Below the pieces are notes generated by a model, which ran no database searches, was not told where the DNA came from, and saw only the letters and a list, made by a program, of their open reading frames with translations. Source: a virus. Taken from it: a stretch of 48,585 nt of DNA. The position numbers and the translations under genes are program-made. Location of the stretch: the IMG/VR virus record IMGVR_UViG_3300021959_000003, positions 1-48,585 of that record. The stretch is one strand, 5' to 3'. This document shows positions 1,182 to 1,982 of this stretch, one piece after another; positions within the stretch are counted from its first letter, which is position 1; every line of letters begins with the position of its first letter.

Positions 1182-1220
1182 AAGTCTTTAAAGAACTCTT
1201 ACGAGTTCTTTACAAGACTT
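1182..1220. repeat. Palindrome across the stop codon of the first early gene
   Basis: A perfect 9-bp stem, AAAGAACTC (1190-1198) with GAGTTCTTT (1203-1211), has loop TTAC containing the stop codon. A further 7-bp outer stem pairs 1182-1188 with 1214-1220. Confidence 0.8.
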
Positions 1221-1606
1221 TTAACGACAGCCGACAACTCGGAGAGTTGAGCCTGTTGCGCTGAGATAATCTTCATGAGATCTTCGATCTCAGAAGATTT
1301 TGCGTCGGCTGAAGCCTTCGGCTTCGGCGAAGACTTCTTCGAAGTCTTTGCAGGCTTTTTGGCAGAAATCATATCCGTAAAGTTCTTAGGAACTTTACGG
1401 GCCTTGAAGAATTTCTGGACATCGCCGTGAGTCATCCTTGTATCAGATTCTGTATAGAATCTGTACAAGATCGCCTTGAACATTCTGGTGTTGTTGTAAA
1501 GATTCGTAGAATCTTTATCGTGCAACTGAGCGAGGCGATACGCAACAGCGTTGAACTGCTTTGCAGTTGCGAGGCGGTTTGAATCAATTTCTGCGAAATT
1601 GGACAT
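1199..1606 (-). CDS. First early protein: basic domain plus C-terminal coiled coil
   Basis: The 135-residue product is the gene nearest the leftward promoter. Residues 1-80 are homologous to the 84-residue protein at 475-729 (RMFKAILYRFY, MTHG, QKFFKARKVP). Residues 82-105 form a Lys/Pro/Ser-rich linker and about 106-135 an amphipathic coiled coil (IEDLMKIISAQQAQLSELSA), suggesting oligomerisation. The ATG at 1606 has GGAGAT 6 bases upstream; that site lies inside a small hairpin (1610-1624). The coding sequence is packed with palindromes that the paralogue lacks. Position, charge and coiled coil would suit an RNA- or polymerase-binding regulator, but this is inference only. Confidence 0.8.
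   Translation of the reverse strand: MSNFAEIDSNRLATAKQFNAVAYRLAQLHDKDSTNLYNNTRMFKAILYRFYTESDTRMTHGDVQKFFKARKVPKNFTDMISAKKPAKTSKKSSPKPKASADAKSSEIEDLMKIISAQQAQLSELSAVVKSLVKNS
1268..1299. repeat. Intragenic palindrome
   Basis: The arms 1268-1282 and 1286-1299 pair over 14 bp with one bulged base (1275) and a 3-base loop. It lies wholly inside the coding sequence of the first early gene. Confidence 0.75.
1308..1351. repeat. Two adjacent intragenic palindromes
   Basis: GAAGCC (1311-1316) pairs with GGCTTC (1320-1325) around loop TTC. Directly after it, 1327-1337 pairs with 1341-1351 over 11 bp including one G-T pair, again with loop TTC. Confidence 0.75.
1375..1400. repeat. Perfect 11-bp intragenic palindrome
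   Basis: CCGTAAAGTTC (1375-1385) and GAACTTTACGG (1390-1400) pair perfectly around a 4-base loop inside the first early gene. Confidence 0.85.
1437..1469. repeat. 14-bp intragenic palindrome with one bulge
   Basis: The arms 1437-1451 and 1456-1469 pair over 14 bp with a single bulged T at 1443 and loop GTAT. The paralogue at 475-729 keeps only the outer CTTGTACAAG core. Confidence 0.8.
1493..1526. repeat. Intragenic palindrome
   Basis: TAAAGATTC (1497-1505) pairs perfectly with GAATCTTTA (1509-1517) around a 3-base loop. GTTG at 1493 and CAAC at 1523 add an outer 4-bp clamp. Confidence 0.8.
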
Positions 1607-1609
1607 AAT

Positions 1610-1624
1610 CAAATCTCCGATTTG
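1610..1624 (-). promoter_or_regulatory. Small hairpin holding the ribosome binding site of the first early gene
   Basis: In the leftward transcript CAAATC and GATTTG pair perfectly around GGA. The GGAGAT ribosome binding site (1618-1613) is therefore half in the loop and half in the stem, which could modulate translation. The stem is only 6 bp, so the effect may be small. Confidence 0.5.
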
Positions 1625-1656
1625 TGAGTTGTCGTCATCGTCGAGGCGGCCTTTTA

Positions 1657-1718
1657 AGACCTTCTAAGCCTTAAAAACCCCTCACTTCATGAGGGGGTTT
1701 TTAAGGCTAAGAAGGTCT
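1657..1718. terminator. Long hairpin with terminator-like core in the early leader (copy B)
   Basis: The arms 1657-1684 and 1690-1718 pair over about 27 bp with one mismatch and one extra G around a 5-base loop. The core (CCCCTCA, loop, TGAGGGG, then five T) reads as a terminator in both directions. It lies between the leftward promoter and the first early gene, so it could act as an attenuator. It is a duplicate of the hairpin at 798-856; at several stem positions both partners have changed together. Confidence 0.75.
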
Positions 1719-1734
1719 AAGCGATCTGCCTCAT

Positions 1735-1756
1735 TTAAAAACCTTAAGGTTTTTAA
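1735..1756. repeat. Perfect 22-bp palindrome
   Basis: TTAAAAACCTT is followed directly by its reverse complement AAGGTTTTTAA with no spacer. It is one of six consecutive dyads at 1735-1982. Confidence 0.9.
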
Positions 1757-1772
1757 TACGCGCGTGTGCGAT

Positions 1773-1803
1773 ATCTTTATAATTTTATGAAAATTATAAA
1801 GAT
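1773..1803. repeat. Perfect 14-bp A+T-rich hairpin
   Basis: ATCTTTATAATTTT (1773-1786) pairs with AAAATTATAAAGAT (1790-1803) around loop ATG. The stem is almost pure A+T, so it could also act as an easily melted DNA element. Confidence 0.9.
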
Positions 1804-1809
1804 TTTTAT

Positions 1810-1845
1810 AAATCTGTAAAAATCTCTAAAGATTTTTACAGATTT
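1810..1845. repeat. Perfect 15-bp hairpin
   Basis: AAATCTGTAAAAATC (1810-1824) pairs with GATTTTTACAGATTT (1831-1845) around loop TCTAAA. Its 18-base centre is identical to the centre of the hairpin at 1914-1947. Confidence 0.9.
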
Positions 1846-1856
1846 CTGGAGGCGTA

Positions 1857-1904
1857 AACCAAAAAGCCTTCAAAGATTAACTAATCTTTGAAGGCTTTTT
1901 GGTT
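1857..1904. terminator. Perfect 22-bp hairpin, bidirectional terminator shape
   Basis: The arms 1857-1878 and 1883-1904 are perfect reverse complements with a 4-base loop. The inner stem GCCTTCAAAGATT is followed by a run of T on either strand, the form of an intrinsic terminator. It lies inside the early leader, about 215-260 nt after the inferred start of leftward transcription. Confidence 0.8.
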
Positions 1905-1913
1905 CCAACGGAA

Positions 1914-1947
1914 GAAACTCTAAAATCTCTAAAGATTTTAGAGTTTC
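1914..1947. repeat. Perfect 14-bp hairpin
   Basis: GAAACTCTAAAATC (1914-1927) pairs with GATTTTAGAGTTTC (1934-1947) around TCTAAA. The loop and inner stem are shared with the hairpin at 1810-1845, suggesting a common origin. Confidence 0.9.
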
Positions 1948-1956
1948 TTTAGAATC

Positions 1957-1982
1957 TGCATAGCCCTTTAGAGGGCTATGCA
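1957..1982. repeat. Perfect 11-bp hairpin
   Basis: TGCATAGCCCT (1957-1967) pairs with AGGGCTATGCA (1972-1982) around loop TTAG. It is the promoter-proximal member of the six-hairpin array and has no T run. Confidence 0.9.

Follow-up and report, generated by a model that had tools for sequence, protein, structure and literature searches.

The window, the whole stretch of DNA analyzed here, is an entire IMG/VR virus record of 48,585 bases from a T7-like marine phage. Genes for the small and large terminase subunits and the portal lie on the positive strand from 2.2 kb, and the negative strand carries genes for PolA, a gp4-like primase-helicase, ribonucleotide reductase, a Cas4-domain exonuclease, an endonuclease, and a gp2.5-like single-stranded DNA-binding protein (SSB). 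The closest isolates are pelagiphages HTVC115P, HTVC103P, and HTVC104P (TerL, 64 to 67%; PolA, 47 to 49%), followed by HMO-2011-type phages of Roseobacter and SAR116 hosts (TerL, 42 to 50%). Positive-strand genes run rightward, starting at 2.2 kb; negative-strand genes run leftward from 1.6 kb, across the ends of the record, and on from 48.5 to 33.8 kb. Thus, the DNA between 1.6 and 2.2 kb is a divergent control region.

Two perfect sigma-70 promoters stand back to back within this region, one directed leftward (positions 2125 to 2153, negative strand; TTGACA-17-TATAAT, 12/12) and one directed rightward, ahead of terS (2176 to 2204, positive strand; 12/12). Cumulative GC skew makes one turn at the control region and another at 33.8 kb. 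A conserved block at 1986 to 2017 consists of GGCCA, a run of C or G, and TATATATACTCAT; the middle run is rich in either C or G, depending on the relative, and parts of the block are common to isolates HTVC103P and HTVC115P. Two near-palindromic octamers separated by one helical turn form a conserved, operator-like pair at 2066 to 2082, which reads CTCCAAAG-A-CTTCAAAG here and CTTCAAAGAGCTTTAAAG in relatives. A DNA similarity search against known phages returned no match for positions 400 to 2200.

The first leftward gene (1199 to 1606, negative strand) encodes a 135-amino-acid protein with a helical domain and a coiled coil. The protein had no match in PHROG, none in Pfam above the cut-off, and no convincing sequence or fold match in the PDB that would place it in a known family, so the gene offers no clue to the hairpins described below. 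A search for relatives with this protein as the query likewise found nothing. The gene is a paralogue of the one at 475 to 729. The two belong to a tandem duplication (475 to 862 and 1199 to 1718) and are 57% identical, and related terminator-like palindromes lie upstream of both. In relatives, the outer paralogue is 77 to 90% conserved, whereas the inner, hairpin-bearing copy is only 38 to 57% conserved. A strong intrinsic terminator (1154 to 1180, negative strand) ends the first leftward unit.

A chain of about 18 hairpins extends over the leader and the coding sequence of this first leftward (early) gene. The initial annotation had drawn attention to densely packed dyads between 1182 and 1982, spanning both a gene and a noncoding leader at the phage control region. 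We confirmed the density, the span, and the placement, which is the divergent region with the leader of the early operon. Ten of the 11 perfect hairpins of the 48.6-kb window (arms of at least 9 bp, loop of at most 10) fall between 1189 and 1983. The segment from 1182 to 1983 contains 16 perfect dyads with arms of at least 7 and loops of 0 to 6, against a mean of 0.54 and a maximum of 4 in 200 dinucleotide shuffles. With arms of at least 9, 10 dyads were observed, as opposed to a shuffled mean of 0.06. At arm lengths of 6 to 8 bp, at least 8 further hairpins are found in the gene and at its start, nearly all with 3-nt loops.

Folding agreed with these counts. Folded as a single strand, the 795-nt zone had z scores of −19.8 (DNA) and −17.8 (RNA), hugely different from dinucleotide-shuffled controls. 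In most 200-nt windows of the zone, the RNA folding z score was about −5 to −15, the weakest values (−1.8 to −3) occurring near 1500 to 1600; outside the zone, it was mostly between 0 and −4. The view that nothing similar exists elsewhere in the window held for the chain but not for single terminator-like palindromes, such as the one at 792 to 862.

Counting from the promoter, the leader contains a 12-bp hairpin with the loop TTAG (1956 to 1983), a 17-bp hairpin with the loop CTAA (1912 to 1949), a 23-bp hairpin with the spacer AC (1857 to 1904), a 16-bp hairpin with the loop CTAA (1810 to 1845), a 14-bp hairpin with the loop ATG (1773 to 1803), and an 11-bp palindrome without a spacer (1735 to 1756). 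The hairpins that had been listed individually were all found in place, the first two being slightly longer than annotated. Between the array and the gene lies a long, imperfect palindrome that contains internal tracts of A and T (1657 to 1718), a relative of that at 792 to 862 and terminator-like on both strands. The hairpin CAAATC-tcc-GATTTG (1610 to 1624) surrounds the gene start. Within the gene, stems of 7 bp (loop TGC; 1585 to 1601), 6 bp (TTT; 1554 to 1568), 9 bp (GTA; 1497 to 1517), 8 bp (GTAT; 1444 to 1463), 11 bp (TTAG; 1375 to 1400), 8 bp (TTC; 1330 to 1348), 6 bp (TTC; 1311 to 1325), 7 bp (TTC; 1276 to 1292), and 6 bp (GGA; 1235 to 1249) follow, and a 10-bp hairpin with the loop TTAC (1189 to 1212) sits at the stop codon.

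The chain thus starts at 1983, roughly 135 nt past the presumed start of leftward transcription, and ends at 1189 with the stop codon of the first gene, directly followed by the terminator at 1180 to 1154. The paralogous gene (475 to 780) has no such hairpins. On these grounds, the chain fills one transcription unit. A T-run directly 3′ of the stem, as in intrinsic terminators, is present at 1154 to 1180 and 1678 to 1696 and absent from the array hairpins. The arms mostly differ, as had been noted; some hairpins share the short words CTCTAAAG, AAGACTTC, and TCTTTGAAGG, and the chain is therefore not an array of copies of one sequence of the REP or CRISPR kind. The loops of 3 to 4 nt are closed by 5′-pyrimidine/3′-purine pairs. 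No Rfam family scored above the cut-off, either at the gathering score or at an E value of 1. We judged an assembly or amplification artifact unlikely, because such arrays recur across many separate metagenomes with the reading frame intact.

To map the chain in relatives, we searched IMG/VR with TerL and the promoter motif, which yielded some 300 loci, and counted perfect hairpins (arms of at least 7, loops of 3 to 4) in the homologous 400-nt leader. Twenty-four of 51 distinct leaders had 3 to 7 such hairpins, and the rest had 0 to 2. Elsewhere in the same loci, none of 1,937 400-nt windows held more than 2. A wider set of 120 distinct leaders comprised 58 with 3 to 7 hairpins and 62 with 0 to 2, a few of the 62 perhaps being unrelated motif matches. 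Fold z scores of the leaders agreed with the counts, ranging from −10 to −20 in the best to about 0 in chain-free ones, e.g., L125. Isolates HTVC115P, HTVC103P, and HMO-2011 (the last read from 30 kb on) have no chain at the homologous site. Across the lineage, the chain has a wide, patchy, and roughly bimodal distribution. Since about half of the relatives are without it, including one member of a near-identical pair (L133 and L028), it is dispensable in some backgrounds.

The relatives nearest in structure (L096, L097, L104, L118, L120, L132, L133, L106, and L136; here, clade A) have leader hairpins whose spacing from the promoter approximates that in the window but whose sequences differ. 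In an alignment of clade A, 99.3% of the cells of the named pairs were paired. Two-sided changes occurred in 10 of 62 pairs (27 cells, which come from related sequences and are not independent events), as opposed to 0 or 1 pairs when the 3′ partner was slid by 1 to 3 columns. Covarying base pairs, a mark of structured cis-regulatory RNA, are therefore present, and conservation of the stems in relatives, on which the initial annotation had staked its proposal, was found as shared positions with compensatory changes, though about half of the leaders are chain-free. The last leader hairpin of L136 is shortened centrally and yet perfect (CCTAGCCCTTTAAGGGCTAGG versus CCTAGCCCTTCAAAGCTTTGAAGGGCTAGG), consistent with slippage in a folded strand.

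The stems changed more slowly than their surroundings. For three leader hairpins in one clade, divergence between relatives was 9% in stems, 17% in linkers, and 35% in loops, compared with 26% at third codon positions of the neighboring gene, and 22 of 100 stem columns were variable versus 15 of 27 linker columns (P = 0.0015). The fast-changing first gene had suggested that the entire zone was locally hypermutated; this idea was rejected for the stems, as they change least. Loop length, by contrast with loop sequence, does not vary freely: 93% of 191 distinct hairpins have loops of 3 to 4 nt, when spacers of up to 6 are included and those of 0 to 2 nt are counted as 3- to 4-nt loops. A tetraloop consensus serving as a recognition signal was rejected, since the loops vary and invert.

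Tolerance of G-U pairs on the transcribed strand, expected of a structured RNA, was not observed; wobble pairs are almost absent. Mismatches at stem ends comprised 42 G-T and 29 A-C, and inner ones 3 G-T and 2 A-C; the mismatch type compatible with pairing in this RNA was not favored. Just past the stem in relatives, 71 of 127 first unpaired positions were transition-type mismatches (G-T or A-C), where composition predicts about one-third. Stem ends seem to fray by transitions. Taken together, the slower stems, the free loops and arms, and the constant positions argue for selection on local folding. We infer that a need for local folding of the strand underlies the retention of the hairpins by selection, and that shape matters rather than sequence.

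Homologous codons of the first gene carry hairpins of different sequence in the window, in clade A, and in L099/L037 (examples are CAGATTCT..AGAATCTG, CAGATTCC..GGAATCTG, and AGTATTCG..CGAATACT). Compared with the chain-free sister L125, amino acid identity was 50% in the window's hairpin codons and 81% in the other codons (P = 0.005), a contrast not seen in every other pair compared, where both members had hairpins or were more distant. Judging from these alignments, the in-gene hairpins overwrite codons at an amino acid cost. GNA triloops were considered as a strand signal and rejected, with 11 on each strand of the gene.

The way in which the arms change points to a mutational mechanism. 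Among 128 distinct leader hairpins, 1,468 Watson-Crick pairs were accompanied by only 5 inner wobble-type mismatches. Thus, the two arms change together with hardly any intermediates. Loops also invert on equal arms: among 10 triloop pairs with no identical position, 5 are exact reverse complements, where 1 in 27 is expected (P = 1.5 × 10^−5). L104 and L127 share 99.7% identity over 4.5 kb, and the sole difference in their leader arrays is a flipped loop (TTC to GAA). Joint change of arms and inversion of the spacer on unchanged arms, the two marks of template switching, are both present.

Arm homogenization and spacer inversion are recognized products of polymerase switching between inverted repeats, which Ripley first proposed in bacteriophages (PMC8604942), and template switching can create and maintain RNA hairpins (PMC8794818). 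Two-sided change without intermediates, combined with loop inversion, is the published signature of this process (PMC8604942, PMC8794818). That arm complementarity in the chain is renewed by template switching during replication is, as a reading of the sequences, well supported by this signature. Quasipalindrome-correction mutations of the Ripley model resemble the chain in their perfect short-spacer repeats, co-changing arms, inverting spacers, and amino acid replacements in coding repeats (PMC8604942, PMC8794818). Those cases, however, are single scattered events, whereas here some 18 repeats stand in a row and are kept in place over a phage lineage.

The chain also moves between genomes. 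Rightward of the array's right border, where the block at 1986 to 2017 lies, L133 (with the chain) and L028 (chain-free) are 98.2% identical over 2.5 kb; left of it, they are unrelated as far as the data reach. Similarity breaks at −142 from the promoter motif (about 1985 in the window), beside the GGCCA/C-run block. Because the pair is near-identical on one side and unrelated on the other, the array belongs to an exchanged early-region cassette that is swapped at this border. This bears on the recombination site proposed in the initial annotation, but nothing marks the hairpins themselves as the crossover sequence. In L104 and L127, a module of about 60 bp is repeated between early genes at about −1.3, −1.8, and −3.4 kb from the promoter motif, in copies about 90% identical.

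We propose, with a probability of roughly 40%, that the chain is a cis-element conserved for its shape, repaired by template switching, and kept for its folding, most likely as early RNA. The folding molecule would be the early leftward transcript, an assignment less sure than folding as such. Leader and mRNA would form a row of rods with little open single strand, and the scarcity of open stretches could shield the transcript, which would be long and partly untranslated, against cleavage of the RNase E type, loading of Rho, and base pairing to other RNAs. The rods might also set the output of the first gene. RNA is favored because the zone coincides with a single transcription unit and extends through the mRNA. 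Among the roles first suggested, a structured RNA is somewhat likelier than a single-strand DNA origin, the single transcription unit speaking for RNA and the lack of G-U tolerance on the mRNA strand against it, although fast template switching would erase wobble pairs whichever molecule is selected.

It is also conceivable, though somewhat unlikely, that the hairpins act as single-stranded DNA at a replication origin in the control region, as initiation sites, by steering primase and SSB, or as cruciforms. The strand opened by leftward synthesis or transcription would span 2.0 to 1.2 kb, and template switching would be expected there, as the DNA would often be single stranded. The GC-skew turns at the control region and at 33.8 kb fit an origin, but the turn follows gene direction as well. 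An A+T-rich TATATATA block adjoins the array, the phage encodes a T7-type polymerase, a primase-helicase, and a gp2.5-like SSB, and the short loops with their pyrimidine/purine closing pairs also suit folded DNA. Pairing is exclusively of the Watson-Crick type and symmetric between strands, with both wobble types equally rare, as DNA requires; as argued above, however, wobble would vanish for any selected molecule. Against an origin, the chain ends with one gene, a limit that no origin would respect, and chain-free relatives replicate.

We consider it rather improbable that the chain is a by-product of mutation that brings the phage no benefit. Strong early transcription and frequent replication would then create a template-switch hotspot that perfects chance inverted repeats and maintains them in that state, in keeping with the influence of transcription level and fork direction on template switching (PMC8604942). 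The direct signatures of template switching, the codons overwritten at an amino acid cost, and the patchy presence of the chain are all consistent with such an origin. Homogenization alone, however, is not expected to make stems change more slowly than linkers and loops, which was nevertheless observed; moreover, loop length is held at 3 to 4 nt, positions persist across long divergence, and a long perfect palindrome usually carries a cost.

It is highly improbable that the array is a site of packaging, recombination, or termination. In favor of such a site, the array lies 230 bp upstream of terS, a nearness that is the sole support for the packaging site initially suggested; exchange breaks at the border between L133 and L028; and the palindrome at 1657 to 1718 and the hairpin at 1154 to 1180 have terminator form. 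Against it, the leader hairpins lack termination-type T-runs on either side (a stack of terminators was therefore rejected), relatives have scattered contig ends, packaging and recombination also take place in chain-free relatives, and a sequence-specific enzyme would need common arm sequences, which the arms do not share.

Known hairpin systems resemble the preferred reading, a shape-conserved element folding in early RNA, in part. Structured phage leader RNAs include the put sites of HK022 and the RNase III sites of T7 early RNA. Like the chain, these hairpins belong to leaders of early phage transcripts, but they have conserved sequences or a few imperfect stems, whereas the arms and loops of the chain are unconserved and the chain enters a gene. 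Hairpin-based DNA initiation sites are represented by the virion RNA polymerase promoters of N4, Frpo of the F plasmid, and mitochondrial OriL. They share short-loop hairpins near early promoters or origins with the chain; each system, however, has one to few sites of fixed sequence, as opposed to many variable ones. The longest open reading frame in the window, which encodes 1,186 amino acids, is no N4-size polymerase gene, and with unconserved arms the hairpins do not qualify as N4-type promoters. REP/BIME elements, CRISPR, and the palindrome clusters of organelles are also clusters of hairpins, but they consist of copies of one sequence, whereas each hairpin of the chain has its own arms and position.

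A search of the open literature found no description of such a hairpin array. The mutational process is known; we did not find described a chain of about 18 hairpins that covers a leader and a gene and is kept in shape across a phage lineage. Tentatively, the chain may represent an undescribed class of cis-element in which only folding into perfect rods is conserved, in leader and coding sequence alike, with template switching as a built-in repair, and which is exchanged as a cassette among marine phages.

As a record of template switching, the chain is natural, dense, and polymorphic: numerous hairpins are available from numerous related genomes, and loop flips are visible between nearly identical phages. 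The chain enters a coding gene, where the protein yields to the fold, and raises the question of whether folding by itself can be selected when no sequence is recognized. Pairs with and without the chain, such as L133 and L028, provide a ready-made comparison. As these phages are related to an abundant marine group (HMO-2011-type phages and pelagiphages), the element may be common in the sea.
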